Origin: Geovibrio ferrireducens
GTDB taxonomy: Bacteria; Chrysiogenota; Deferribacteres; Deferribacterales; Geovibrionaceae
DNA length: 64,000 bases
Assembly (NCBI RefSeq): GCF_026226615.1
Contig: NZ_JAJAPB010000004.1
Coordinates: 186,001 to 250,000, forward strand
Direction: 5' to 3'
How positions within the stretch are numbered: the first letter of the stretch is position 1; each line of letters starts with the position of its first letter. This document shows positions 4,566-42,073 of this stretch, in pieces. The notes below the pieces were generated by a model. The model saw only the letters and a program-made list of their open reading frames with translations, did not search any database and was not told the origin of the DNA. Both the position numbers and the translations under genes were made by a program.

Positions 4566-4590
4566 TGTAATACCTCCGTGTTTTCATGGC

Positions 4591-4604
4591 CGGCATCCTT
4601 GCCG
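4591..4604 (-). promoter_or_regulatory. GGA-loop hairpin just upstream of flagellin 1 Shine-Dalgarno
   Basis: On the minus strand CGGCA-AGGA-TGCCG forms a 5-bp stem with AGGA in the loop, about 14 nt before the Shine-Dalgarno ACGGAGG. The core GCAAGGATGC is close to the known CsrA site (ACARGGATGT). A CsrA role is an inference; no csrA or fliW is in the window. Confidence 0.6.
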
Positions 4605-4694
4605 TTTTTACTCTTGTTTTTTACCGAAAGTTCCAGCGGCTCCCTGACGGGAGTTTTGTGGTCAGCTTTTAAGAAGAGGGGCTGAAATTTTTCG

Positions 4695-4736
4695 AAAAAA
4701 AAAGGCCGATGACAGGATTAAACCTGACATCGGCCT
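4695..4736 (-). terminator. Intrinsic terminator inside the flagellin 1 leader
   Basis: AGGCCGATGTCAGG (4736-4723) pairs with CCTGTCATCGGCCT (4716-4703) with one mismatch and a 6-nt loop, followed by nine T on the minus strand. It lies about 100-140 nt after the predicted sigma-28 start and 130 nt before the start codon. The box TTGGTACTGAAATA directly upstream is shared with the flagellin 2 leader. It is either an attenuator or the 3' end of a small RNA. Confidence 0.85.
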
Positions 4737-4834
4737 GAGTATTTCAGTACCAATTCCTATTAAGTTTTAACTTCGGCATTTATGGGAAGATGAGGCTCAT
4801 TTTATATGTCGCCTTTGGTGTCTTCCTCTGCATG
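4695..4834 (-). ncRNA. Putative sigma-28-dependent leader/small RNA upstream of flagellin 1
   Basis: The interval runs from the predicted start site (about 7 nt after the -10 box) to the end of the T-tract, about 140 nt. It contains short ATG-start frames of 16 and 11 codons without convincing ribosome sites. The longer-range layout (promoter, conserved box, terminator, then 130 nt to the gene) is repeated before flagellin 2. No Rfam family is recognised by eye. Confidence 0.45.
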
Positions 4835-4840
4835 AATGTA

Positions 4841-4867
4841 GTATCGAAAATACAAAAGAGATCTTTA
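4841..4867 (-). promoter_or_regulatory. Sigma-28-like promoter of flagellin 1
   Basis: On the minus strand TAAA (4867-4864), 15 nt, then TTCGATAC (4848-4841); the family consensus is TAAA-N15-GCCGATAA. The spacing is exact and the CGATA core is kept. The start codon is about 270 nt downstream of the predicted start site. Confidence 0.7.
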
Positions 4868-4953
4868 GAAAAAAAATTTAAAAAAGATCGAAAGAAGGCA
4901 CTAGTTCATTGAGGGAAAAGGAGTAATTTCATCCTCTTCCTTAAGAAACCCGT

Positions 4954-4991
4954 TCCGGATGAAGGAGGGCGAACTCAGCCGCCCTCCGGAA
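4954..4991 (-). terminator. Hairpin after flaG, possible terminator
   Basis: GGAGGGCG (4964-4971) pairs with CGCCCTCC (4980-4987), 40 bases after the flaG stop. No T-tract follows on the minus strand, so it may be a weak or factor-dependent terminator or an RNA-stabilising 3' end. Confidence 0.5.
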
Positions 4992-5029
4992 ATATACTGA
5001 ACTCTGTTATAATTTACTTACTGAATCTT

Positions 5030-5419
5030 TCAGAACTTTTCATCCAGCATAAGCCCCACCATCTCTTTGATGTTCCGGGAAAGCCTGACGGCCTCCTCAG
5101 ACGGGATCTGCTTGATTACACTGCCCTTTTCTCTGTCTATGAGTTTCACTATCACAGCATTAAGCTGTTTCTCAACACTGAACTCACGCTTAACGTCCAT
5201 ACTTTTGAGACTTTCGTTAAGCTTTTCGACAGCAGACTCAACTTCCTCTTGTTTTACCTGTTTCTTTTCCTTCTCAGTGTCCACCTTTTCGGCAGCGTTG
5301 CCGAAGAGTTTTTCATTAACCAGTTTTATTGACTGCGAAACACTCTGAGTAGCCTGTACTTTTGCTCCGCTGCCCGCATCGGGTGTACCAGTTTGAACGT
5401 TCTTTACAAATTCAATCAT
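5030..5419 (-). CDS. flaG: FlaG family flagellar protein
   Basis: The protein has 129 residues, the normal size for FlaG. The first 50 residues are low-complexity and the middle is charged (KEKKQVKQEE). The C-terminal half matches the FlaG core: a helix VEKLNESLK, the strand ending LNAVIVKLIDREKGSVIKQIP, and the helix EEAVRLSRNIKEMVGLMLDEK. In other bacteria FlaG influences filament length and export, and it is usually next to flagellin or fliD. It lies 61 bp downstream of flagellin 2 on the same strand, with a hairpin (5439-5470) in the gap that lacks a T-run, so it probably shares the flagellin 2 transcript at a lower level. The Shine-Dalgarno AAGGTG precedes the ATG. Confidence 0.9.
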   Translation of the reverse strand: MIEFVKNVQTGTPDAGSGAKVQATQSVSQSIKLVNEKLFGNAAEKVDTEKEKKQVKQEEVESAVEKLNESLKSMDVKREFSVEKQLNAVIVKLIDREKGSVIKQIPSEEAVRLSRNIKEMVGLMLDEKF

Positions 5420-5438
5420 GACTACACCTTAAATAGCA

Positions 5439-5470
5439 TCCTAAGAGACGGCTTTCACCACCTCTTAGGA
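5439..5470 (-). other. Intergenic hairpin between flagellin 2 and flaG
   Basis: TCCTAAGAG (plus 5439-5447) pairs with CTCTTAGGA (5462-5470) around a 14-nt loop. There is no T-tract. It could be a partial terminator or a processing/stability hairpin that separates flagellin from flaG expression. Confidence 0.6.
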
Positions 5471-5480
5471 AATTGATTTA

Positions 5481-7865
5481 TTACCCTATAAGCGAAAGAG
5501 CCATCTGCGGAAGAGCATTAGCCTGCGAAAGCATGGCAATGTTCGACTGAGCCAGAATCTGGTTTTTAGTGAACCTGGCCATCTCATCAGCTATGTCAAG
5601 GTCGCGTATCCTTGATTCAGCTGCTGTCAGGTTTTCTCTTGTTGTGTCAAGGCCTGTCATAGTGTATTCAAGCCTGTTGATCTGAGCACCGATCGTCGCC
5701 CTGACACCGGAAACATTGCCGAGAGCCTTGTCCAGCTTAGTGATAGCTTTCTGAGCAAGATCCTGATCAACCATGAGAATGTCATCTATACCGAGAGAGG
5801 TAGTATTTATCTGCGGTATGTTCGCAAGGATAGTCTGCCCTTCGTTAGCACCGATCTGCATTTTCATGGCGTTATCAACAAGATGGAGCTTGATGTCCTC
5901 GCTTTCGCCTGTTGCCGTAAAGCTAAGTTCTTTTTTGGTTGAATCCCAGCTTATATCCACACCTACATTGCTGTCCACTTTGACATCAACACCCTGAATA
6001 ACTCCTCTGAGAGTTCCGTCATTAACCTTATCGGAGCCGATGAACTTGCCTGTGTGTGCATCAGTGACTTTAATTGTCATTTCGCTGTTTTCACCTTTCT
6101 GGATTGTGGCAAGCGAAAGGGCATTAATGAAGTTCTGGTCGCCGATGAAGGAAAGCTTGCTCTCTTCACCCAGACGTGCAGTCTGAATAACGAAAGTTCC
6201 TTCAAGAGCTTCATTAGTGTTGGCAGTGTCATCCCCGGTTGAAACATAGTTCACGAGGTTGTTGTTTACGGTTGTGGCTTCATCACTTGTGCTTGATGTT
6301 GCACCCATGCCGAGACCGTTCACTATAGCTTCTGAAAGCTTTGTTTCAAAATCGGAGATTGTGTCATCACCTTCGATATAAATGGTAGCTGATTTGCCGT
6401 TACCGTAAATTGTCAGTTCCTGAGGACCGGCTGCAAAGATATTAACACCGTCATCAGTTGTGAATCTGGCTATATCTTTCAGCTTTGTGGTGCTCGCAGC
6501 AGCCTCGCCGCCTCCGAGAATCTGAAGGTCAAAAGTTCCGGCATCGGTTGAACCGTAAGCTGTCAGTGTTCCTGTGTTCTCTCTGAAGTTGAGAGTCAGG
6601 TTGCCCACATCAAGATTGCCTGTGGTCTCGTTGAGAACGGCGTGATAAATTGTTACGCTGTTGTAGTCTATTGTGGTGTCGCCGTTGTCGGCCTTAGTCA
6701 GTTCATTATTGCCGTAGGACAGAGTCGGTCCTGTTGTCCCCGCAGCGCCGCCGGAAAGCTGGATAGTACCGCCGCCGGAAGTAGTTGAAGTATCAACTGC
6801 CTCTGTTGTGCTGAGGAGTATTTTGTCCCCGGACTGGAACTTGGCATCTGTTCCTATTGCGAAGGAAAGTTCGCCTGAGAAACCTGCACCTGTGATGTCG
6901 GCAAGATCAAAAACAAGGTTGCCCGCACCGTCATCTCCGCCCTGAATTTCAACCGAAGTTTCAGCACCTGTCTTCGCATTGATGAAGGTGGCTTTAAAGG
7001 TGTAGTTCGCTGTAGTACCTGACACGGTGAAGTTTGTTTTGGCTTCAAGCAGGAGGTAACCGGAATCGCCCACTGTACCACCGCCAGTTGCCCACGTGGT
7101 TGCTGTGCTGAAGTTAGAGCCAGCCTGCCTGTACGCGCTGAGAGTAACCACAGCAGAGCCTGTGTCCGCACCCGCGCCCACTGTTACTGTGTAGTAAGCT
7201 GTGCCTGTGGAGGCAAGTGTGTTGGGATCACTTACAAAACCCACGTTGGTTCCGTTGGCGTTTCCGCCTGCAGTTACAATTTCCGCTCCTATAGCGTCTT
7301 CGTTAAGGGTCATAACGTCTGACTTGTAGACATAGTTTTTACCGGGGTCTACAGTGACGTTAAGATTGTAGTTGCCTTCGGCGACTGCACCCTTAACAAT
7401 GGCATTCAGTGAAGAGCTGTCTGAAGACCAGAGAGCAGTTGAGTTTCCGTTAAGAAGCTTCTTGGTGTTGAACTCCGTAGAAGAGGATATTCTGTTGATC
7501 TCTTCCTTGAGCTGGTCAACCTCTTTCTGGATCTCAGCTCTGTCGTTCGTGGTGTAAACACCGTTGCCCGCCTGAACAGCGAGCTCTCTCATTCTCTGAA
7601 GCATGTCCTGAATGTTCTGCAAACCGCCTTCTGCGGTCTGAAGAAGTGAAATACCGTCCTGGGCGTTCAGCGAGGCTCTTTTGAGGCCGCTTATCTGTCC
7701 CCTTAATTTCTCAGAAATGGCAAGACCGGATGCGTCGTCCGATGCCGAGTTGATTCTAAGACCGCTTGAGAGTCTTTCAAGAGATTTTGAGATGTCGTTG
7801 TTTGTCTGTCCCAGATATCTCTGCGCGGTGAGAGACGGAACATTAGTATTGATATACATTGCCAT
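5481..7865 (-). CDS. fliC: Flagellin 2, long form (794 aa)
   Basis: This is a second flagellar filament subunit with the same length and plan as flagellin 1. N-terminal D0/D1 occupies about residues 1-145, then comes a long Thr/Ser/Gly-rich variable centre with segments shared with flagellin 1 (the STTEAVDTSTTSGGGTI region). C-terminal D1/D0 ends AMLSQANALPQMALSLIG. The differences are concentrated around residues 230-340 and 420-560, as expected of surface domains under diversification. The start has a strong Shine-Dalgarno (AAGGAGGA, 7877-7871). Its leader is unusually long, about 290 nt from a near-consensus sigma-28 promoter, and holds a terminator, three short repeats and a GGA-loop hairpin. 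flaG follows. Which flagellin is the major filament protein cannot be told from sequence; the better promoter favours this one. Confidence 0.97.
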   Translation of the reverse strand: MAMYINTNVPSLTAQRYLGQTNNDISKSLERLSSGLRINSASDDASGLAISEKLRGQISGLKRASLNAQDGISLLQTAEGGLQNIQDMLQRMRELAVQAGNGVYTTNDRAEIQKEVDQLKEEINRISSSTEFNTKKLLNGNSTALWSSDSSSLNAIVKGAVAEGNYNLNVTVDPGKNYVYKSDVMTLNEDAIGAEIVTAGGNANGTNVGFVSDPNTLASTGTAYYTVTVGAGADTGSAVVTLSAYRQAGSNFSTATTWATGGGTVGDSGYLLLEAKTNFTVSGTTANYTFKATFINAKTGAETSVEIQGGDDGAGNLVFDLADITGAGFSGELSFAIGTDAKFQSGDKILLSTTEAVDTSTTSGGGTIQLSGGAAGTTGPTLSYGNNELTKADNGDTTIDYNSVTIYHAVLNETTGNLDVGNLTLNFRENTGTLTAYGSTDAGTFDLQILGGGEAAASTTKLKDIARFTTDDGVNIFAAGPQELTIYGNGKSATIYIEGDDTISDFETKLSEAIVNGLGMGATSSTSDEATTVNNNLVNYVSTGDDTANTNEALEGTFVIQTARLGEESKLSFIGDQNFINALSLATIQKGENSEMTIKVTDAHTGKFIGSDKVNDGTLRGVIQGVDVKVDSNVGVDISWDSTKKELSFTATGESEDIKLHLVDNAMKMQIGANEGQTILANIPQINTTSLGIDDILMVDQDLAQKAITKLDKALGNVSGVRATIGAQINRLEYTMTGLDTTRENLTAAESRIRDLDIADEMARFTKNQILAQSNIAMLSQANALPQMALSLIG

Positions 7866-31296: not shown

Positions 31297-32493
31297 TTAT
31301 CTGACGAGGGTGTTAAGCGAAAACAGCGGATCCATTATCGAAATCACGATGAATCCGATTATCACACCTATGAACATTATAAACAGAGGCTCGATAATTG
31401 ATACGAACCTTGATGTGAGTTCCTCTGACTTTTTGCCGAAGAATGAGCTTACCCTTTCGAGGAGCTCGGCGACATTTCCGGACTGCTCCCCTGTTGTGGC
31501 AGCCGCTTCAAAAAGCTCAGTAAAACCGCCGACCCTTTTGACCGCATCCGAGAACCTGTCCCCGGAACGCACTTTATCCGCCACAGCGTCCACCTTGGCA
31601 GTGAAAGCCCTGTTCCAAGAAACCTTGGCAGCGTTATCCAGAGCCTCGGTAAGCGGAAGCCCCTCACTGACCTGAAACGCCACTACATGGGCAAAGCGGG
31701 CGATGAGCACATGGTTTATAAACTGGATTTCAAGCAGTCTTGAATCCACCTTCATTCTGAATTTAATGTTGTTGCGGTAATACCAGCGCACGCCGACGGC
31801 AGCGGCCAGTATCAGTATGAATATGAAAATACCGTACGACTGGAGCACGGAGGAGATGGCTATCAGCGCCTTGGTGCTTCCCGGAATGTCCGACCCTGCG
31901 GCAGCGAAGATCCCCTCAAGCTTGGGGACGACATAACTGAGCAGGAAGCCCACAACACCCAAGCCCATTATGAGAACCGCCATAGGATACATGAGCGCGC
32001 TGGTGAGCTTGCCTTTCACCTTTTTCTTTTCCTCTTCAAAACGGGCAATATCCATGAGGACTTCGGGCAGCCTGCCCACCTCTTCCGCCGTTCTGATGAG
32101 GTTTATGTACATTTCCTCAAAAGTGTCCGGATATTTTGCGAGGGCATCGGAAAATCTTTTACCTTCCGAAACTGTTCCCGCAACATCCATGACCACATTG
32201 CGCATGCGCCCCCTTGCGGAGGAGCCTGCCATTACTTTCAGGGCATGAACAAGGGCAATGCCGCTTTTAAGCAGCAGGGAAAGCTGGAAGAAAATATCAG
32301 GCACGGCGCCTTTGCCGCTGAAAAGCTGGAATGACGAGAGAAAGCCCTTTTTATCGCGCACTGAACGGATTTCTGAAACAAGAACCCCTTCCGCCATGAG
32401 CCTCGCCACGGCGGAGTTTTTCGTGTCCCCTTCCAGAACGCCTTTGACCTTCTTTCCGCTTTTGTTTACGCCCGTGTATGTGAAAGTAGGCAT
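31297..32493 (-). CDS. gspF: Type II secretion inner-membrane platform protein
   Basis: GspF is the polytopic inner-membrane platform on which the pseudopilus is built, working with the GspE ATPase. The 398-residue protein has the usual short N-terminal TFTYTGVNKSGKKVKG segment, two repeated cytoplasmic T2SF domains (about residues 70-190 and 270-390), and three membrane helices (near 168-195, 217-240 and 372-395). It is last in the minus-strand operon and shares one base with gspE upstream. Confidence 0.96.
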   Translation of the reverse strand: MPTFTYTGVNKSGKKVKGVLEGDTKNSAVARLMAEGVLVSEIRSVRDKKGFLSSFQLFSGKGAVPDIFFQLSLLLKSGIALVHALKVMAGSSARGRMRNVVMDVAGTVSEGKRFSDALAKYPDTFEEMYINLIRTAEEVGRLPEVLMDIARFEEEKKKVKGKLTSALMYPMAVLIMGLGVVGFLLSYVVPKLEGIFAAAGSDIPGSTKALIAISSVLQSYGIFIFILILAAAVGVRWYYRNNIKFRMKVDSRLLEIQFINHVLIARFAHVVAFQVSEGLPLTEALDNAAKVSWNRAFTAKVDAVADKVRSGDRFSDAVKRVGGFTELFEAAATTGEQSGNVAELLERVSSFFGKKSEELTSRFVSIIEPLFIMFIGVIIGFIVISIMDPLFSLNTLVR

Positions 32494-33950
32494 TAATCAA
32501 TCCTTGTTACAGCGATAAGCTCCCACGGAGTGGTGACCCCTTCCTTAACCAGACTGTAGCCGTAGTCAAACATGCGCTGGTAGCCGTGCTTCTTGGCCTC
32601 CTTCATCAGGTCGGTGGATGAGGCGCGGTCATTGATCATTTTGCGGAGCGGGTCATTCACGGTCATAATTTCAAATATACCTGTACGGCCTTTATAGCCT
32701 GTGTTGAAGCACTGGTCACAGCCTTTGCCCATATAGTGCTTAGGCAGTTTGAAGCCCTCTGCCGCGAAGTAGTTTTTAACATAGTCGTCAGACTCAACCT
32801 CGGTTTTGCAGTTGGGGCATATTTTACGCACAAGCCTCTGCCCCATGGTGCAGAGGAGTGATGACGAAATAAGGAACGGCTCCACATTCATATCTATGAG
32901 CCTGGCAACAGCCGTAGGCGCATCGTTAGTGTGGAGAGTTGAGAGCACAAGGTGTCCCGTGAGAGAGGCCTGAACAGCGGCCTGCGCCGTCTCCTCATCC
33001 CTGATCTCGCCCACGAGTATAATGTCCGGGTCCTGACGGAGGAAGGAGCGGATAGCATTGGCGAATGTTATATTAACCGCCGGGTTCACCTGAACCTGTG
33101 TTATCTTCTCCATCTGGTATTCCACCGGATCTTCTATTGTGACTATGTTGGTGTCATCTGAAACAAGCTCAAGGAGCGAGGCATAAAGCGTTGTGGTTTT
33201 ACCGGAACCGGTGGGTCCGGTGACAAGTATAATCCCGTTGGGGCGTTTGAGGGCAGACCTGTAAATTTCCAGATTATGTCCGCTCATGCCGACTTTTTCA
33301 AGGGTGGCCATGCTTTTTGAACGCTCAAGGATACGGAGAACGGCCTTCTCGCCGGTAACGGAAGGGACGGTGGAAACGCGCACGTCAATGGTGCGGTTGC
33401 CTATTTTCATGTTTATCCTGCCGTCCTGCGGTTTCCTTGTTTCTGCAACGTCAAGGGATGAAATAACCTTTATACGTGCAATCACGGAATCCTGCATTTT
33501 TTTAGGGAACTGGCGGATTGTGCTGAGCTTGCCGTCCACCCTGAAACGCACCGCAAAGGCGTTGTCCTTGCCTTCGAAGTGAATGTCGCTGGCTCCGTTC
33601 TTAACAGCCTGAATCATAAGCTGGTTAACCAGCTTGATGATGGGCGCATCGTCATATGACGCGGAGAGAATGTTCCCCTCAGCGTCCTCCAGAATTTCTT
33701 CCGCACTGCCGTATTCCTCGCCGCTGACATCACCGCCGAGGGTTTCGAGAATCTCGAATATCTTCTCTTTCTCGGAAGATACCAGCTTTGCGTTCACGCC
33801 GAGGTGAAATGTAAGGAAGCGGGCTTTTGCAAGTCCGGAGCTTCCGCTGTATAAAAGAGACACTTCGTCTTCGCCGCCCGCAACGGGCACAAAGTCGCTT
33901 CTGTCTGGAAATTTAAGGTAATGCTCAAGTACCTTTTCGTAGGCTGTCAT
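32493..33950 (-). CDS. gspE: Type II secretion traffic ATPase
   Basis: This hexameric ATPase drives pseudopilus extension. The 485-residue protein has an N-terminal GspE-II domain, an Asp-box and RVDGKLSTIR segment, Walker A GPTGSGKTTT near residue 243, the Walker B-type DPDIILVGEIRDEET, and the His-box LSTLHTNDAPTAVARL. A tetracysteine zinc site follows (CPNC, then about 30 residues, then CDQCF). It overlaps gspD by 4 bp and gspF by 1 bp. Confidence 0.97.
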   Translation of the reverse strand: MTAYEKVLEHYLKFPDRSDFVPVAGGEDEVSLLYSGSSGLAKARFLTFHLGVNAKLVSSEKEKIFEILETLGGDVSGEEYGSAEEILEDAEGNILSASYDDAPIIKLVNQLMIQAVKNGASDIHFEGKDNAFAVRFRVDGKLSTIRQFPKKMQDSVIARIKVISSLDVAETRKPQDGRINMKIGNRTIDVRVSTVPSVTGEKAVLRILERSKSMATLEKVGMSGHNLEIYRSALKRPNGIILVTGPTGSGKTTTLYASLLELVSDDTNIVTIEDPVEYQMEKITQVQVNPAVNITFANAIRSFLRQDPDIILVGEIRDEETAQAAVQASLTGHLVLSTLHTNDAPTAVARLIDMNVEPFLISSSLLCTMGQRLVRKICPNCKTEVESDDYVKNYFAAEGFKLPKHYMGKGCDQCFNTGYKGRTGIFEIMTVNDPLRKMINDRASSTDLMKEAKKHGYQRMFDYGYSLVKEGVTTPWELIAVTRID

Positions 33951-35782
33951 TTAAAGCTCTTATCTATTGTTTTCTTCGATTCGTTTTTAAAGTCTACTGA
34001 TTCCTGTCTTTTCCTTTCGGAAAGCTCTTCTGCTTCTTCATGGCTGCTTATAATCTGCGCGTTAATAAACACCATGAGGTTTGTTTTCTCATAAGACTTG
34101 CTGGTGTTTTTAAACAGCCATCCGATAAGCGGAATCTTTGAGAGTCCGGGAACTGCGGAACGGTCTTCCGAGGAGTCGTCCTTCATGAGGCCGCTGATAA
34201 CCACCATTGAGCCATCTTTCAGCTTAACCTTCGTTTTGGTGTTACGAGTGAGTGTAACAGGCTGAGTGGAATCAAAGGTTGCAGAACTTACCTTCTTGAC
34301 TTCCTGCTCTATGGAGAGAGTAACATAGTCGTTAGCGGATATCTGGGGCTGAATTTTCAGCTTAACACCCACATCACGGTAGTCATAAGACTGTACGGGG
34401 TTGTTGTTGGAGTCATATTTTGTACTTGTGAGGAAGGGCCTGTTCTCACCGGCAAAGATTTCCGCCTCTTCATTATCAAGAGTAAGTATCTGCGGGTTTG
34501 AGAGAATATTCACGCCGGATGCTGATTTGATGGCATTCACAAGGAGGCTGAGAGAGGGAAAACTCACTCCGTCATACTTGATGATGTCTCCAAGAATACC
34601 CAAGTTGAAGCCGCCCGCCAGTGAAGGAGTGTTGCCGTCGCCGAGCACAGCACTCTGAAAGCTGTTGAGTCCGCCGTTGTCATTGACGAAACCCACAGTG
34701 CCCACGCCGTTCTTGCCGCCCAAAGCTGTCTGCCACTCAACACCGAACTTGTTGCCGCTGTCCAGAGTGGTTTCTATAATAAGCGCTTCCACATAAACCT
34801 GTCTTCTGGGTATGTCGAGCTTTTCGATCAGCCCTTCAACCTTCTGGTAAAGCTCCTGATCACCCACAACTATTATGGAGTTAGTAGCCTTGTCCGCCGC
34901 AACCTGAGACTTCACTACAGCCTGAGTTTTTGCGTCTGTAACAGAGGAGAGGAGCTTGTTCATCACTTTTTCCACATCCTCCGCGTTGGCATTGTTGAGA
35001 TAAAAAACTTTGGGCTGGCTATGGGCTGACGAAGCTGAACTGTCAACCTGATTTATGATGTAGTTTATTCTTTCAAAGTCGCCTTCTTTGGCCGCGATTA
35101 CAAGCACGTTGGAATAGTCATCCGCGACTATTACCGGGTCGGCGGCGGTCATGAAGTTTTTCTGGAGCTCCGCATAAAGTTTGGAGACGATTTTCTCCAC
35201 ATTTGAGGCAAGTCCGTTTTTGATCACTATGCTTTTTACAGTGTATCCGGCAGCCTCTCTCTCAAGGGTGTCGAGAATGCTCATAATTTTCTGGATGCGG
35301 TCTGCCGAATCACGGATAACTATGGCGTTCATCCCCACCAGTATATCTGCGTTGCCGCTTCTGGAACTGAGGTTTTTGAGCACTGAAACAAGCATGCGCA
35401 CATTGAAGTTTTTCGGGGAAACAACGGTGGTGAGAAACCCGTTCTCCTTGCCGGTCATGTTGTTTATGTAATTGTCGCCGTAGAACTTCACATCACCGCT
35501 TTTTACAATCTGGATGTAGCGCTGTTTGTCAACAGCAGTAAGCCCGTTCAGTTCGAGCGTGGCGTAGAAGATGTCCATAACGTCCTTGGAGTTCATCTTC
35601 ATTCCGGTCTGAACCGTAACCTGTCCCCTCAGATCGTTTTCATCGTAGACAAAGTTTTTCCCGGTAAATTCTGCCGTGAATTTAACAAAGTCCTTCATGG
35701 ACATATTATTGAAGTTCACATCGTACTGCGCATACGAATTAAAGGAGACTAATAATAAAACTATAACTATAAAACGCTTCAT
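33947..35782 (-). CDS. gspD: Type II secretion outer-membrane secretin
   Basis: GspD forms the outer-membrane channel of the secretion system. The 611-residue protein has an N-terminal signal peptide (ending near NSYAQ, residue 19). N0-N3 periplasmic domains (about residues 25-320) include VYVEALIIETTLDSGNKFGVEWQ at their end. The secretin core has the VPGLSKIPLIGWLFKN motif near the C-terminus. A short Lys-rich tail follows (KRQESVDFKNESKKTIDKSF). No obvious S-domain or pilotin site can be assigned. gspC is 7 bp upstream. Confidence 0.97.
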   Translation of the reverse strand: MKRFIVIVLLLVSFNSYAQYDVNFNNMSMKDFVKFTAEFTGKNFVYDENDLRGQVTVQTGMKMNSKDVMDIFYATLELNGLTAVDKQRYIQIVKSGDVKFYGDNYINNMTGKENGFLTTVVSPKNFNVRMLVSVLKNLSSRSGNADILVGMNAIVIRDSADRIQKIMSILDTLEREAAGYTVKSIVIKNGLASNVEKIVSKLYAELQKNFMTAADPVIVADDYSNVLVIAAKEGDFERINYIINQVDSSASSAHSQPKVFYLNNANAEDVEKVMNKLLSSVTDAKTQAVVKSQVAADKATNSIIVVGDQELYQKVEGLIEKLDIPRRQVYVEALIIETTLDSGNKFGVEWQTALGGKNGVGTVGFVNDNGGLNSFQSAVLGDGNTPSLAGGFNLGILGDIIKYDGVSFPSLSLLVNAIKSASGVNILSNPQILTLDNEEAEIFAGENRPFLTSTKYDSNNNPVQSYDYRDVGVKLKIQPQISANDYVTLSIEQEVKKVSSATFDSTQPVTLTRNTKTKVKLKDGSMVVISGLMKDDSSEDRSAVPGLSKIPLIGWLFKNTSKSYEKTNLMVFINAQIISSHEEAEELSERKRQESVDFKNESKKTIDKSFK

Positions 35783-35789
35783 CTCACAC

Positions 35790-36659
35790 CTAATTTATTT
35801 CCACGAATATTGTTTTTTTCTGTCCTGCTCTTTCCAGATCCAGAGTCACCGCTGAAACATTTTCAACTGAGCTCAGCATGCTGAAAAGGACTTCGGGGCT
35901 TTTCAGCTCCTCCCCGTTTATACGCATAATAGCATCGCCGTTTTTAAGCCCCAGACTGCGCAGCACCGAATCCTTCGTCATGCGGGAGAGACGGAAGCCC
36001 ACTATATGCCCTTCTTTTTCATAGGGGCGCATAAGAACCGACTTTATTATGTTGTTTATATCTCCGAGGTTGGTTACGAAATCAGCGCGGGTCATGCTGA
36101 CTTTTTCTGTGGGGGTCATGTCCCCCGGTTCGGCATCGTCCCCTGATTCATCCCCTGCGGGAGCAGCGCCCGGCTGGGAGGACTGGAGAACGGAGCCTGC
36201 GCTGTAAAGCTCAAGCTTTGTCTTACCCGTGGCGGTAACAACAGTTCCGCTGGTTTTATCAAGGCTTTCAAGCTTCACGCCGGAGAAGGTTTCACCGACG
36301 GCAAGGAGCACCTTTTCGCCGTCCAGATCAAAAAAAGCGTAGGACTTATGACGGTGACCTAAAAGTATGCCGATCAGTTTTATATTTCTTGGAGGAGGGG
36401 CGGTTATGATTTCTCCGCTCTCCGTGACGAGTGTTTCAGAGGAAGGTGCGGCTGATGCGGTTTTGAGGGAAAAGATGTTCTTTTCAGTAATAATTGCAAT
36501 ATCCGCAGTTTTCACTGCCGCGGATTTTTTGCCGCCCAGCTTAATCCCCTCCATCACAGTCGGGGTGTGTTTGTATGAGATAAACCCCGTAATCAGCCAT
36601 GCAAAGGAAAAAGCCGCAAGAACCGGATAAATAAACCATGGAATCTTTATAGTATTCAT
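35790..36659 (-). CDS. gspC: Type II secretion inner-membrane clamp protein
   Basis: GspC bridges the inner-membrane platform and the secretin. The 289-residue protein has a membrane helix at about residues 9-28, a homology region with IKLIGILLGHRHKSYAFFDLDGEKVLLAVGE (HR domain, spaced motif near 95-125), a Pro/Gly/Asp-rich linker, and a C-terminal PDZ domain (DSVLRSLGLKNGDAIMRING). It is first of the core genes in the minus operon, downstream of the CPBP protease gene. Confidence 0.93.
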   Translation of the reverse strand: MNTIKIPWFIYPVLAAFSFAWLITGFISYKHTPTVMEGIKLGGKKSAAVKTADIAIITEKNIFSLKTASAAPSSETLVTESGEIITAPPPRNIKLIGILLGHRHKSYAFFDLDGEKVLLAVGETFSGVKLESLDKTSGTVVTATGKTKLELYSAGSVLQSSQPGAAPAGDESGDDAEPGDMTPTEKVSMTRADFVTNLGDINNIIKSVLMRPYEKEGHIVGFRLSRMTKDSVLRSLGLKNGDAIMRINGEELKSPEVLFSMLSSVENVSAVTLDLERAGQKKTIFVEIN

Positions 36660-36723
36660 GAGAATAGAAATAGCATGAATAAAGGAAAAATCAAATTAAA
36701 ATCAGGGACAGCGGAGGTAATAT

Positions 36724-37182
36724 TTACACTATCATCACATTGAGATTGTAAAAGGAATGGCAGAGCACGCAGGGCAGCACTGACCTGTATTCCGTGTACA
36801 GACACCCGAACACCACGGAAGGGAAAAACACCGGAAAAGCCTGTGCCGGCCCGCTCCCCCAGAGGTGAAAAACAGCAAACAGCACGGAAACTGCGATATT
36901 CGCCGCGGAAACAGAATAAAAAGACGGCCATTTACGCCTTTCAAGCCACTCCTGAACCACTCCCCTGAAAAAGAGCTCCTCCGCCAGCGGCGCAAGGATC
37001 AGATACCTGAACACCAGCGAGGAGTCAAAAACCACGCTCCTTCCGAAAAACAGTATTCTCAGGGAGAAATAAAGACTGCCCAGAACAAAAGCGGCAAGAA
37101 GAATGAGATGTTTTCTGTCCATACCGGAAAAAATACCACGTAAGGGAGAAAAAAACAAACCTTTGCATCCGCCGGATGTCAT
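36724..37182 (-). CDS. Short CPBP-family glutamic-type intramembrane protease in the T2SS locus
   Basis: A 152-residue membrane protein (132 if the Met at 37122 is the start) with the three CPBP/Abi motifs: LAEELFFRGV (Glu68, Glu69, Arg73), FAVFHLWG (His106) and CHSFYNLN (His142, Asn146). These are the residues expected to form the active site of CPBP (Rce1-like) proteases. It is far shorter than ordinary CPBP proteins and resembles the compact members, such as those proposed to process C-terminal sorting tags (MrtJ/MrtX type). It sits at the head of the gspCDEF operon, divergent from gspG. That suggests action on T2SS substrates or components, an inference with no tagged substrate in the window. 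Neither start has a strong ribosome site. Confidence 0.82.
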   Translation of the reverse strand: MTSGGCKGLFFSPLRGIFSGMDRKHLILLAAFVLGSLYFSLRILFFGRSVVFDSSLVFRYLILAPLAEELFFRGVVQEWLERRKWPSFYSVSAANIAVSVLFAVFHLWGSGPAQAFPVFFPSVVFGCLYTEYRSVLPCVLCHSFYNLNVMIV

Positions 37183-37288: not shown

Positions 37289-37723
37289 ATGATGAACAGC
37301 AAAGGTTTCACTATCATCGAAGTGCTGGTGGTTATCGTTATCCTCGGCCTTCTTGCCACTTTCATGGTCCCTAAAATAATGGGCAAGCCTGATGAGGCGA
37401 GGGTAGCCAAGGCAAAGAACGATATACTTGCCATTGAATCCGCTCTTAAGATGTACAAGCTTGACAACGGCTACTACCCCACCACAGAGCAGGGGCTTGA
37501 GTCCCTTATTCAGGCGCCCACAATTGAGCCCATCCCCAAAAACTACCGCAAAGGCGGCTATCTGGACACTTCCAAAAAGCCCCTTGACCCGTGGGATCGC
37601 GACTTCATCTACAGAAGCCCCGGCGAAAACGACAGAGACTATGAAATAATCTCCCTCGGAGCCGACGGTGTGGAAGGCGGGGAAGACTTCAACTCAGACA
37701 TCAAGAGCTATGAAATAAGATAA
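37289..37723 (+). CDS. gspG: Major pseudopilin of type II secretion
   Basis: The 144-residue protein has a type IV prepilin-like leader (MMNSKG before [14 protein letters not shown], with Glu at mature position 5), the long N-terminal helix, and the GspG C-terminal region: [17 protein letters not shown], then [14 protein letters not shown] and [17 protein letters not shown], whose acidic loop matches the calcium site of GspG. It is first in the plus-strand operon; a second ATG at 37292 is equally possible. The prepilin peptidase gene gspO is not in the window. Confidence 0.97.
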
Positions 37724-38139
37724 TGTCTGCCAGAGGCTTTACTCTTGTAGAACTTATTATTGTTCTCCTTATCATCGGCATAGGCTTTATGACTGTAGCC
37801 CCTGTCATGATTGAAAAAGCCACGGGAGAACCGGAAGAAACAGCCTTTTTGAATGATCTGCTCAGGAAAACCGCGGATGAGGCGGCGGAACTGGGCAGAG
37901 CCCTTCCCATACTGGGGGTGAAAGGTTCAAACTCTCTTTTTCTCCATGGCGGTGAAACAGTTAAAATCCCCGGCATATCAGGTGTTCTTTCAGCCAGAAT
38001 CAATGACGAGGAACAGTCCGGACTTGACTATGTGATCATGGTTTACCCCAAGGGAATCTGCGATCATTTTCTTTTACGGGTATCAGACACGGAAATCATA
38101 GAATCAATCCCACTCCTGATGCAGACGAGGCTGAAATGA
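37723..38139 (+). CDS. gspH: Minor pseudopilin GspH
   Basis: The 138-residue protein has a prepilin leader MSARG followed by FTLVELIIVLLIIGIG, with Glu5 of the mature part, and a small beta-rich domain. It starts inside the gspG stop codon (TAATG) and overlaps gspI by 4 bp. The call rests on the prepilin N-terminus plus the order G-H-I-J-K. The globular part is weakly conserved, as is usual for GspH. Confidence 0.85.
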   Translation: MSARGFTLVELIIVLLIIGIGFMTVAPVMIEKATGEPEETAFLNDLLRKTADEAAELGRALPILGVKGSNSLFLHGGETVKIPGISGVLSARINDEEQSGLDYVIMVYPKGICDHFLLRVSDTEIIESIPLLMQTRLK

Positions 38140-38462
38140 AAAAAGGCTTCACCCTCCTTGAGCTTCTTATAGCAATGGTTGTCCTTTCCATCGGCATGAT
38201 GGGCATTTTCACCCTTGTCAGGCAATCGCTGGATATGAACGACTACGCCAAGAGGAAGCTTGATCTGCTGGGCAGAGGGTACGAAAGAGTGATACTCACA
38301 CTGGCGGAGCGCAAAACCCTTGAAGAGATAATAAGCGACAACGGCACAACATACACCTATAAGCTGGAAAAGAAGGACACCGGACTGGCCGGCATCAAAG
38401 CCTGCGAGCTGAGAGTGTCTGACGGAACAGCGGAGATGACTCTGTTTTATTATGAAAGATAA
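38136..38462 (+). CDS. gspI: Minor pseudopilin GspI
   Basis: The 108-residue protein has leader MKKG before FTLLELLIAMVVLSIGMMG and a short C-terminal beta domain. In the known systems GspI forms the pseudopilus tip with J and K. Positional order supports the assignment. It overlaps gspH by 4 bp and gspJ by 11 bp. Confidence 0.85.
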   Translation: MKKGFTLLELLIAMVVLSIGMMGIFTLVRQSLDMNDYAKRKLDLLGRGYERVILTLAERKTLEEIISDNGTTYTYKLEKKDTGLAGIKACELRVSDGTAEMTLFYYER

Positions 38463-39003
38463 CAAAGGCTTTACACTGGCGGAATTAATAATTGCGGTTG
38501 CTCTGGCCGGGATAGTGCTCACCGGAGCATACGCAATATTCAATACAATAATCACCTCGCGGGATGTCTCCGTCAGGGCTGGGGACGCAGTGACTGTAAA
38601 CGCGAAGCTTGCCTCTCTGCTCTCTGCCGATTTCAGACAGGCGGTGAGAAATACCGCTGAAATACAGTCTCTGAGCGACAGGGTGGCTCTCAGGCTGCTT
38701 ACCCACAACTCCCTCTATTTTCAGGGGGCAATGCCTGTGGAAGTTCTTTACTATATTGAAGACAAATACCTGTTCAGGGAGGAGAAACTGCCGCTCATGG
38801 ACTTTGAGCAGAGGATGCAGATCCTTCCCGATGCGGACAATTTCACCGTGCTTTTCTATGAAGCGGGCGAATACCACGACAGAACTATCCTCGGAACAAA
38901 CATGATAAAAGTTAAGCTCAATACATCAGGCATACAGGTTGAGGCAATTGCAGGAAGCTACCACCAGAACGCAATGTTCAACTCACTGGGGATAGGCGAA
39001 TGA
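38452..39003 (+). CDS. gspJ: Minor pseudopilin GspJ
   Basis: The 183-residue protein has leader MKDNKG before FTLAELIIAVALAGIVLTG, a long helix, and a beta-rich C-terminal part with VALRLLTHNSLYF and VEVLYYIEDKYLFREE, typical of GspJ. It overlaps gspI by 11 bp and gspK by 4 bp. Confidence 0.88.
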   Translation: MKDNKGFTLAELIIAVALAGIVLTGAYAIFNTIITSRDVSVRAGDAVTVNAKLASLLSADFRQAVRNTAEIQSLSDRVALRLLTHNSLYFQGAMPVEVLYYIEDKYLFREEKLPLMDFEQRMQILPDADNFTVLFYEAGEYHDRTILGTNMIKVKLNTSGIQVEAIAGSYHQNAMFNSLGIGE

Positions 39004-39908
39004 ACAATAAGGGGAGCGTTCTTGTTTTCGTGCTTATATTTGTCGCCTTCACCATCGGCATAGTGACCTTTATGCATCAGCGGGCGGGCAACTCTCTGGC
39101 GGACAGCGCAGGGCTCCAGTTTGAATATCAGTCATCTATTTATGCCATGTCAGCCATAGAAGCCATAAGGGAAGTTCTTGAGGATGATGACAATAATTAC
39201 GACTATGACGGGGAATCATGGGCGATTATACCCCCTTTTCCCGTTCCCATGGGGTTCATATCCATCACAGTAACCCCCACCAACGGCCGCATACCGCTGA
39301 ACATGATGGACGGGGACAACAAATCCGCCGCCTACGTGACCGGATGCAGGAACACGCTGAAAGAGCTTGAGCTTCAGGAATCGATCTGCTCCGTCATAAA
39401 AGACTGGATAGACACCGATGGCGAGGTTTCAGACCTGGGTGAAGAAAATGTAGACTATAATATTGACGGAAAAACCTACTCCACCAAAAACGGCTCGCTG
39501 GAAACCCTCAGGGAACTCAGCTTCATAAACGGAGCCAAGGATCATTATGATGTGCTTGCCCAGCACTTCACCAATCAGGGGGACGGCAAGCTGAACCTGA
39601 ACTTCGTGACCAAGGAAGCGCTCATCGGGCTGGTTCCGGGAATTGCCTCATACGCGGACAGCATAATAGAGTACAGAACGAAAAACACATACAAAGACGT
39701 GTCAAATATAATGAACGCAGCAAGCATTCCGCAGGATATATACAATACGTCGCTGGACTATCTCACGGTAAAAAGTTCTTTATTTTATGTAAAGACTGAA
39801 GTAAGTTTGAATGACAAGTCCCGTTTTTACCATGTACTTCTGGAAAGAAACGGTTCGCGCACATCCGTAGTGAAATATATAGAAGGGAACGATGGCATCT
39901 TCTTCTGA
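39000..39908 (+). CDS. gspK: Minor pseudopilin GspK (tip protein)
   Basis: GspK caps the pseudopilus. The 302-residue protein is the largest pseudopilin. Its leader MNNKG is followed by SVLVFVLIFVAFTIGIVTF, and like other GspK proteins it lacks the mature Glu5. The alpha-domain insertion follows, with RIPLNMMDGDNKSAAY and VIKDWIDTDGE motifs and an acidic segment (DDDNNYDYDGE). It overlaps gspL by 17 bp. Confidence 0.92.
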   Translation: MNNKGSVLVFVLIFVAFTIGIVTFMHQRAGNSLADSAGLQFEYQSSIYAMSAIEAIREVLEDDDNNYDYDGESWAIIPPFPVPMGFISITVTPTNGRIPLNMMDGDNKSAAYVTGCRNTLKELELQESICSVIKDWIDTDGEVSDLGEENVDYNIDGKTYSTKNGSLETLRELSFINGAKDHYDVLAQHFTNQGDGKLNLNFVTKEALIGLVPGIASYADSIIEYRTKNTYKDVSNIMNAASIPQDIYNTSLDYLTVKSSLFYVKTEVSLNDKSRFYHVLLERNGSRTSVVKYIEGNDGIFF

Positions 39909-40893
39909 CAAAAATTTATTTATTAAAAACAACAGGCTTTACAATGTTGAAAACGGGCGGGCGGATTTCCCTGCCAGCACCGAACAGACCGGAGCTTACA
40001 CGCTTTTTCTGGATGATTCGATGTTCTTTTATCTGTCCATGGATCTCCCCTCATCAAACAGGAAAAAGGCCAAAGGGTTCATAAACAACTATCTGAGCAC
40101 ACTTTTCCCTGAATACATGACGGAAAATTTCGGATTTGTTCTCCATGGCGGCTCGGCGCTTATCTACCTCCCCACGGGAGAATTTGCATCATTTGTTGCG
40201 GAAAACCTTCCGCTGCTTAAGAAAGCTTCGAAGATAACAACCCCTTTCATAGAAATGTTCGTGAGGGAAGCCTCATTTGACTACTCTGACGGAAACAAGT
40301 GCTACTCTGTTTCCGGCGGCGAGATACACCAGCTTTTTGATGAACCTGAAGACGCATACACGGCGGAAAAGGTTCTGAACAGGGTAATTCCTGCAAAAAT
40401 CTCCATGAGCATTAAAGGAGTGGAGAAGGAATCCTTCATCCCCTCAGCGTTTAAGGTTCCGGCGATTGTTCTAGCAGTGTGTTACCTTGTTTTCATAGGC
40501 GGGGAATACCTGCGGCTCAAGGGATATGCTTCCGCACTCAAACTCAGGGAAAATAAGCTGCAGGAGCTTTACACCCTCGGAGGAGTCAGCGGCTCTAACG
40601 ACCCTTACGGCACACTGCTTTTCAAAGCCAGAGGCGGCAGGGAAACATCTCAGGGAATAAGCATTCTCAATGTTTTTGAAACACTGAGCAAAGCTGCTGA
40701 CAAAGGCAAAATAAAGCTGGAAGACGTAACAGTCAGGGACACTACGATAAACTGTACCGGAACCTCAACAGATTTTCAGGCTGTTGAGGAGTTCAAACAG
40801 AAGCTTCAGGAAGCCGGAGCCCAGAGGGTTAATATAGAAGACACAAACAAACAGGGTGAAATAATCAAATTTTCAGTGAGGTTCGGCTTATGA
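39892..40893 (+). CDS. gspL: Type II secretion assembly protein GspL
   Basis: GspL links the GspE ATPase to the membrane platform. The 333-residue protein has an actin-like cytoplasmic part (about residues 1-180), one membrane helix (about 187-204, VPAIVLAVCYLVFIGGEYL) and a periplasmic ferredoxin-like C-terminus. Identity to known GspL is weak by eye; order and topology carry the call. It overlaps both neighbours. Confidence 0.8.
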   Translation: MASSSDKNLFIKNNRLYNVENGRADFPASTEQTGAYTLFLDDSMFFYLSMDLPSSNRKKAKGFINNYLSTLFPEYMTENFGFVLHGGSALIYLPTGEFASFVAENLPLLKKASKITTPFIEMFVREASFDYSDGNKCYSVSGGEIHQLFDEPEDAYTAEKVLNRVIPAKISMSIKGVEKESFIPSAFKVPAIVLAVCYLVFIGGEYLRLKGYASALKLRENKLQELYTLGGVSGSNDPYGTLLFKARGGRETSQGISILNVFETLSKAADKGKIKLEDVTVRDTTINCTGTSTDFQAVEEFKQKLQEAGAQRVNIEDTNKQGEIIKFSVRFGL

Positions 40894-41372
40894 ACATAAA
40901 AGTGGATCAGGCACTGAAAGAAAAAATACTCATATGGTTCGTTGCGTTCTTCGCCGTGTTTTTTCTCTTTTACTGGACACATATGCTGTTCGCTTCCAGA
41001 GCAAACTCATATACCCAGCGCCAGAAATCATACACTGAGCAGATAGCCAAAACAGCCGAACTCATATCGGAAGTATCAAGCGGCGCCAACTCCACCAAAA
41101 GGGTTGAGAGCGGGCTTCTCTCATTCATACAGAACACTGCGGCAAGAACAGGTATCGCAGGACGCATTCTCGACCTTAAGCCCGTTTCCAATGCATCCGG
41201 CGCTGAGGTTGTTTCACTGCGTATTCAGGCGCTTAATCTTAACGAGCTCAACTCTTTTCTTGGTCTTGTGGAGGGCTACCAGAACCTGACAATCAAAAAC
41301 TTCTCACTTAAAAAGAGATTTGATGACCCCACACTGGCAGATATAACACTGGAGCTTGTGAAAAACAGATGA
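40890..41372 (+). CDS. gspM: Type II secretion assembly protein GspM
   Basis: The 160-residue protein has one membrane helix near residues 12-32 (ILIWFVAFFAVFFLFYW), a coiled periplasmic helix (YTQRQKSYTEQIAKTAELISE), and a small alpha-beta domain. This is the GspM plan: a partner of GspL. It overlaps gspL and gspN by 4 bp each. Confidence 0.82.
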   Translation: MNIKVDQALKEKILIWFVAFFAVFFLFYWTHMLFASRANSYTQRQKSYTEQIAKTAELISEVSSGANSTKRVESGLLSFIQNTAARTGIAGRILDLKPVSNASGAEVVSLRIQALNLNELNSFLGLVEGYQNLTIKNFSLKKRFDDPTLADITLELVKNR

Positions 41373-42073
41373 TAAGAAATATTTTAATAAATGCGGCAAT
41401 ATTCGTTGGATGCTCTGTTCTTTTCCTGTTTGTATTCTTTCCCTATGCAAAAGTGCTTGAATTTTATGCGGAAAAGGCCGCGGCAAAAGCAAATGTGACC
41501 CTTTCAATCGGTTCTGCGGACGCAGGGCCTTTCGGAGCGGAACTCGCCTCCATAAAACTCAGCGAATTCACCGCGGACAAGCTGGTGCTCGGCTATACCC
41601 CCCTCTCCGTCTTAACGCATTCAGTCTCTGCCAAAATCAACTCAGAGATCATCACAGGCGAAGCAAGCCACAGCGGCGGCGAAGTTAAGGCAAAGGCTAT
41701 GATTGAGCTTGATAAAATACCGCAGATAACGGAAAGCGGCATGGGCGGCGAAGTGGCATTTGATCTGGCTGTCAAGGACTGGAAGGGAGCCGGGAAAATC
41801 TCCGCACCCAAACTCATCATCCCTTCCGAACTGGGGCCCATTACCTTTAACGATGTAACAGGTGACCTGCTGATTGAAAAACAGATGATAGGCATAAGCA
41901 ACCTTACATCACAGGGCGCAGCAAAAATTAAGCTCAACGGCAATATCAGAATAAATCAGGTGAACGCAGGCAAAAGCGTAATCGCACTCACGGGAACTCT
42001 GGGTGTGGCAGGAATGAACAAACGGATAACCATCACAGGAACTGTTATGGAGCCCAGAATAACCGTCAATTAA
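41369..42073 (+). CDS. gspN: Type II secretion protein GspN
   Basis: The 234-residue protein has an N-terminal membrane helix (residues about 5-27) and a periplasmic beta-rich region with repeated strands (IKLSEFTADKLVLGYTPLS, GGEVAFDLAVKDWKGAGKIS in spaced form). It resembles the GspN proteins found at the ends of secretion operons in deltaproteobacteria-like lineages. It is the last gene of the plus operon. Its end overlaps by 8 bp, tail to tail, with the frameshifted lipoprotein gene. Confidence 0.8.
   Translation: MIRNILINAAIFVGCSVLFLFVFFPYAKVLEFYAEKAAAKANVTLSIGSADAGPFGAELASIKLSEFTADKLVLGYTPLSVLTHSVSAKINSEIITGEASHSGGEVKAKAMIELDKIPQITESGMGGEVAFDLAVKDWKGAGKISAPKLIIPSELGPITFNDVTGDLLIEKQMIGISNLTSQGAAKIKLNGNIRINQVNAGKSVIALTGTLGVAGMNKRITITGTVMEPRITVN

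Follow-up and report, generated by a model that had tools for sequence, protein, structure and literature searches.

Results

The type II secretion cluster and the mrtJ gene

The window analysed in this study is the whole stretch of 64,000 nucleotides from Geovibrio ferrireducens, and it contains genes of the type II secretion system (T2SS) on both sides of a divergent junction. The mrtJ gene is separated by 64 bases from gspC, which follows it on the same strand together with gspD, gspE and gspF, while the gspG-H-I-J-K-(L)-M run begins at 37289 on the opposite strand. A sequence-only reading of this DNA had placed a compact protease gene at the head of the gspCDEF operon and divergent from gspG, and both positions are borne out by the gene map. 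The features are as follows.

31297..32493, minus strand: gspF, inner membrane protein (TIGR02120, 298 bits)
32493..33950, minus strand: gspE, ATPase (TIGR02533, 552 bits; PF00437)
33947..35782, minus strand: gspD, secretin (TIGR02517, 442.8 bits, over cut-off)
35790..36659, minus strand: gspC (best matches NF041515, 97.7 bits, and TIGR01713, 80.5 bits, both under cut-off; position in the cluster)
36724..37122, minus strand: mrtJ, 132-aa CPBP intramembrane glutamic protease (NF033192, PF02517, congener alignment, dN/dS, AlphaFold2 model)
37289..37723, plus strand: gspG, major pseudopilin (TIGR01710, 168 bits, over cut-off)
37723..38139, plus strand: gspH-like minor pseudopilin (prepilin motif; weak TIGR01708)
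38136..38462, plus strand: gspI-like minor pseudopilin (prepilin motif; gene order)
38452..39003, plus strand: gspJ-like minor pseudopilin (prepilin motif; weak TIGR01711)
39000..39908, plus strand: gspK, minor pseudopilin (NF037980, 111 bits; PF21687)
39892..40893, plus strand: probable gspL (gene order only; family searches without match)
40890..41372, plus strand: gspM (PF04612, 27.4 bits, slightly below cut-off; gene order)
41369..42073, plus strand: possible gspN (position only, 3' of gspM in the same run)

The mrtJ reading frame (36724..37182, minus strand) encodes 152 aa from its first ATG and 132 aa from its second, which are the two ends of the size range of 132-152 residues given earlier. 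Because the stretch 5' of the second ATG is broken by frame-disrupting indels and lacks the first ATG in two congeneric genomes, and the 132 codons that follow align without gaps with both congeners, the ATG at 37122 is favoured as the probable start; the start at 37182, which would give 152 aa, lacks conservation. Over the 132 codons dN/dS was about 0.11-0.17 (0.155/0.970 against congener G002), and the gene is therefore under purifying selection. A single copy of mrtJ was found in the genome. A promoter scan of the mrtJ region found no promoter. In the spacer at 36660-36715 of the window, the 50 bases separating mrtJ from gspC are near-identical among three congeners and more conserved than the third codon positions of mrtJ; the spacer is possibly a separate promoter or leader of gspC.

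Family, motifs and predicted fold of MrtJ

The protein scored 93.6 bits on the NCBIfam MrtJ model NF033192 (cut-off 75, residues 38-130) and matched the Rce1-like Pfam family PF02517 with an E-value of 3.3e-21. The comparison with the MrtJ, MrtX and MrtC models that had been suggested for this protein singled out MrtJ, the only Mrt model passed: scores on the MrtX (32 bits, cut-off 180), MrtC and MrtP models were far below their cut-offs. On the myxosortase family core NF040914 it reached 64.4 bits, under the cut-off of 100, as do the typical MrtJ proteins L114 and L119 (57.4 and 70.8 bits). By these model scores, the enzyme is classed as a member of an already named family, MrtJ (myxosortase).

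All three CPBP motifs named by the sequence-only reading (EExxxR, FxxxH, HxxxN) are within the 132-aa protein, as E48-E49-LFF-R53 (EELFFR), F82-AVF-H86 (FAVFH) and H122-SFY-N126 (HSFYN). None of the E, R, F, H and N residues of these motifs varies among 17 sequences from relatives, at 30-77% identity. An AlphaFold2 model with a pLDDT of 94.4 has five helices. Fold comparison of this model with the PDB gave nothing below an E-value of 1, and PDB sequences searched with a profile gave no match.

Tagged client proteins in the same genome

The sequence-only reading had predicted that secreted proteins of this genome carry a C-terminal tag of a motif, a helix and a basic end. Searches of the genome found three such proteins: a subtilase, a VesB-like trypsin and an Ig/ASH-domain protein. 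Each has an export-like hydrophobic stretch at its N-terminus, and in each the C-terminal tag consists of Gly-Gly-Cys-Ser-Ala, a hydrophobic helix and basic residues.

The subtilase (with Big_5) and trypsin genes are adjacent and convergent on contig C14, and their tags are GGCSAGTEADYALVVLMLISGIILIRRKI and GGCSASENGNISLLLMSAALAVFIKRGRRKA, respectively. In the genome search these tags scored 27.1 and 26.3 bits on the JDVT-CTERM model NF033191, whose cut-off is 27. The trypsin resembles the VesB structure 4lk4 (E 1.2e-33); VesB is a model client of rhombosortase and the T2SS. The third client, of 825 aa with ASH/choice-of-anchor-D domains, is encoded on contig C6, and its tag, GGCSAGGSANMPIALFALAGMARIAMRRKERR, was found by a tag model built from relatives. 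NCBIfam JDVT-CTERM is the sole independent tag model, and it passes one of the three clients, narrowly (27.1 vs 27 bits). Since JDVT-CTERM scores were lower when whole proteins were scanned (20.7 bits for the subtilase, and 23.1 bits, below the cut-off), standard annotation probably misses these tags. A third match of this model, at C1:110043, was rejected because it is not at a C-terminus.

The Cys after glycines, the helix and the basic C-terminus of JDVT-CTERM are all present in the client tags. A [LIF]-D-[VP]-[TA]-like (Leu/Ile-Asp-Val/Pro-Thr) element defines the JDVT-CTERM family, and it is missing after the Cys in all three. The enzyme gene (contig C4) is apart from the clients (C14 and C6), and there is no two-gene neighbourhood of enzyme and target.

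Two further observations concern the third client (L113, 1411-3885; congeners L249, L251 and L255). It has a lipoprotein-like N-terminus, e.g. ITVSCGSGG or FVISCGSGS, besides its C-terminal Cys tag, and may be anchored at both ends. Each of the three genomes from the genus has a generic rhomboid gene, below the rhombosortase cut-off, about 1.5 kb from this client:

G000:C6:98409-98843: rhomboid gene near the third client
G001:C8:241763: rhomboid gene near the third client
G002:C1:583244: rhomboid gene near the third client

Occurrence of mrtJ and tags in relatives

We searched 60 genomes, 48 of the class and 12 outside it. The mrtJ gene is carried by 35 of the 48 class genomes, and 25 of the full set of 60 also have an NF033192 match above the cut-off. 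The tag search was positive in 27 of the 35 class genomes with mrtJ and in none of the 13 without it; when only gspG-positive class genomes are counted, the numbers are 27/34 and 0/7. The Fisher value of this co-occurrence, 1e-6, is descriptive, as it ignores kinship and the tag models (A1/A4) were made from matches in these very genomes; because relatives are not independent samples, Fisher values overstate the significance. The same tag model found nothing in the 13 mrtJ-less class genomes nor in the 12 genomes outside the class. The absence of tags where mrtJ is absent is the stronger half of the co-occurrence evidence.

The genomes of the lineage encode 1-4 tagged clients each, unlinked to mrtJ. 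In relatives, proteases and adhesin-like proteins make up most of the clients (trypsin 11/35, subtilase 8/35, LRR 5/35; the others are surface-type), and the client tags reached up to 31.4 bits on the JDVT-CTERM model, several being over the cut-off.

The glycine-rich tag, the VesB-like trypsin and the rhomboid gene near the third client in the three congeners would also suit another enzyme, a rhomboid-type rhombosortase (GlyGly-CTERM), with MrtJ otherwise employed, e.g. in bacteriocin self-immunity or generic membrane proteolysis. However, JDVT-CTERM was matched by 23 of the 35 clients, whose listed families do not include GlyGly-CTERM, the GGC including its Cys is invariant in 25/25 aligned tags, and tag presence tracks mrtJ, not the rhomboid. 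The best TIGR03902 score in the genome of G. ferrireducens, 36.9 bits, belongs to a generic rhomboid, and a weak match of this kind is also present in all 14 control genomes. Rhombosortase was rejected as the processing enzyme, as the TIGR03902 cut-off of 84 bits was reached in 0 of the 60 genomes, and we regard this explanation as very improbable.

The tag models found no tag in eight genomes with mrtJ (G020, G023, G027, G037, G040, G042, G045 and G046). One of them, G020 (L195, 1280-1720), has a frameshifted mrtJ with gspC still adjoining, and two are less than 90% complete. Near kin of the tagless genomes carry a divergent PGGCSI tag that was detected only with a widened model. In genus g13 (L275, L197-L199), a divergent PGGCSIAKGKSTG-like tag is on a 526-aa exported protein, alongside a divergent MrtJ.

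Five mrtJ-less genomes (G012, G017, G018, G026 and G031) have no clear gspG and no tags. In four (G024, G034, G043 and G044) the absence of mrtJ is uncertain because they are incomplete or end at the contig edge of gspG. Two others (G015 and G030) have an intact gspG/gspC junction without mrtJ and are without tags. These two bear on the idea of a housekeeping function for MrtJ within the T2SS itself, e.g. maturing or turning over an inner-membrane Gsp protein, the tagged clients being incidental. Such a role would agree with the position of mrtJ at the operon head everywhere but in family f4, and with the eight genomes that have mrtJ and no detected tag, but relatives with an intact junction dispense with mrtJ, and elsewhere the enzyme family pairs with tagged proteins encoded next to it (Nitrospirota and Campylobacterota, among the matches listed). 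We consider a housekeeping role extremely improbable.

Conservation of mrtJ next to gspC and related arrangements outside the class

Whether the gene stays with gsp genes in relatives was the other point raised by the sequence-only reading. It does in most: of the 35 mrtJ-bearing class genomes, 31 have the gene immediately 5' of gspC, class-level relatives included. The four exceptions are all members of family f4, where mrtJ is not near gsp and its neighbours are inconsistent.

Outside the class, Nitrospirota and Campylobacterota have a classic MrtJ beside a tagged protein among the GTDB matches listed, and the tag of L119, GGCTINPDAEFDPALL, has the [LIF]-D-[VP]-[TA]-like element. In L120 (JACQEY010000181.1, Nitrospirae), one 967-aa ORF at 3409-6312 comprises a secreted sugar-dehydrogenase-like protein, a GGC tag and a complete MrtJ; either target and enzyme are naturally fused here or a stop was missed. 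Two distant phylum members, L107 and L057 (G048 and G050), have tags with a DATLP element (GGCGAGSSSDATLP and GGCTPGGSGFADATLP), and a Mrt-core search of their genomes gave no match at E 1e-8.

In at least two Planctomycetota (Phycisphaerae) genomes, a myxosortase-like CPBP gene is upstream of gspC or gspD:

L166 (JAAYBV010000108.1), at about 6001: CPBP gene upstream of gspC/gspD
L187 (PLLP01000024.1), at about 6001: CPBP gene upstream of gspC/gspD

Because the two proteins reach 85 and 78 bits with the myxosortase core model, whose cut-off is 100, they are relatives and not certified myxosortases. A MYXO-CTERM search of both genomes gave nothing over the cut-off. At least two Desulfobacterota (L173, QZKS01000052.1; L186, SLIE01000143.1) have a CPBP gene before a gspF-like gene, with about 32-39 bits and distant from MrtJ.

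The place of mrtJ before gspC could be merely inherited: MrtJ would process tagged proteins, and the clients would use the T2SS not at all or incidentally, with no coupling. A single ancestral insertion would pass to the whole class, and family f4 has lost the link and yet keeps mrtJ and tags. The link, however, is still present where the proteins are 30-40% identical and reaches a class-level relative (L008, L010), and in genus g15 it persists while gspG has been relocated away. Genomes without clear gspG are also without mrtJ and tags, related proteases precede gspC or gspD in the Planctomycetota, and the client types are classic T2SS cargo. Inherited order is thus an unlikely explanation.

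Discussion

MrtJ is probably the C-terminal sorting peptidase of the cell's type II secretion route, acting on clients with GGC tags. Because MrtJ heads the T2SS operon and the genome holds three proteins with matching tags, MrtJ and the tagged proteins very probably serve to anchor secreted enzymes on the cell surface. Newly made clients would have an export signal at the N-terminus and, at the C-terminus, a tag (GGC[SA], hydrophobic helix, basic end), and after Sec export the tag would retain them in the inner membrane. MrtJ may then cut at or beside the invariant Cys, by analogy with MrtX, and the Cys is probably lipidated before the cut, an order carried over from what is proposed for MrtX. 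The trimmed, folded and lipid-anchored client would pass through the T2SS to the outer surface and remain attached there.

Cleavage of the Cys-containing MYXO-CTERM tag of TraA by MrtX has been shown both in Myxococcus and in E. coli (PMC11980579). That the Cys is lipidated before this cleavage is a proposal and not proven, and MYXO-CTERM clients are proposed to travel via the T2SS (PMC11980579). MrtX of Myxococcus xanthus shares with MrtJ the CPBP core with EExxxR and HxxxN and an invariant-Cys tag. However, MrtX is larger, with 239 aa and seven helices, and is usually in a separate three-gene cluster, whereas MrtJ has 132 aa and five predicted helices. Rhombosortase prepares VesB for the T2SS (PMC6219818). 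The route of RssP and GlyGly-CTERM in Vibrio cholerae appears analogous, in that an intramembrane protease removes a C-terminal tag before the T2SS takes the protein to the surface, but rhombosortase is an unrelated serine protease and its tag is not Cys-based. The CAAX proteases Rce1 and MmRce1 have PF02517 in common with MrtJ, but their substrates are prenylated CAAX ends.

MrtJ has been described as half of a two-gene pair whose other member is its one target, with scattered occurrence among beta- and gammaproteobacteria (PMC11980579, citing Haft 2024). The present system agrees with MrtJ/JDVT-CTERM (NF033192/NF033191) in an enzyme over the equivalog cut-off and in a tag with GG, an invariant Cys, a helix and a basic end. 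It differs in being lineage-wide and in the T2SS operon, with 1-4 unlinked clients whose own tags are without the Leu/Ile-Asp-Val/Pro-Thr element. As far as open papers show, three features are new: mrtJ occupies the T2SS operon throughout the lineage, each genome has several clients unlinked to it, and the tag is looser, without the JDVT element. A fixed place in the T2SS operon throughout a class was not found described in the open literature; the original JDVT description lies outside this coverage and may state part of it.

A further step would be that MrtJ is a built-in part of the T2SS, co-expressed with GspC-F, with cleavage and anchoring of clients coupled to their hand-over to GspC/GspD, and that gspC-type operons acquired CPBP proteases on more than one occasion, including in Planctomycetota. 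We put this forward tentatively, as a possibility about which we are rather doubtful.

The route from tag through intramembrane sortase and T2SS to surface anchor has so far been proven in pieces, with MrtX in Myxococcus and with rhombosortase and VesB in Vibrio. Strong genetic evidence for this whole route comes from a lineage whose T2SS operon includes a CPBP sortase gene and whose genomes each encode 1-4 tagged clients. The findings also suggest that the cut-off of the present tag model is set too high for the lineage, and that many tags of this sort go unannotated as a result. The 132-aa enzyme and its three clients provide a small tractable system for Cys lipidation and for T2SS recognition of lipid-anchored cargo. 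If recruitment of CPBP proteases to gspC-type operons is recurrent, a T2SS with its own sortase would be a recurring design.
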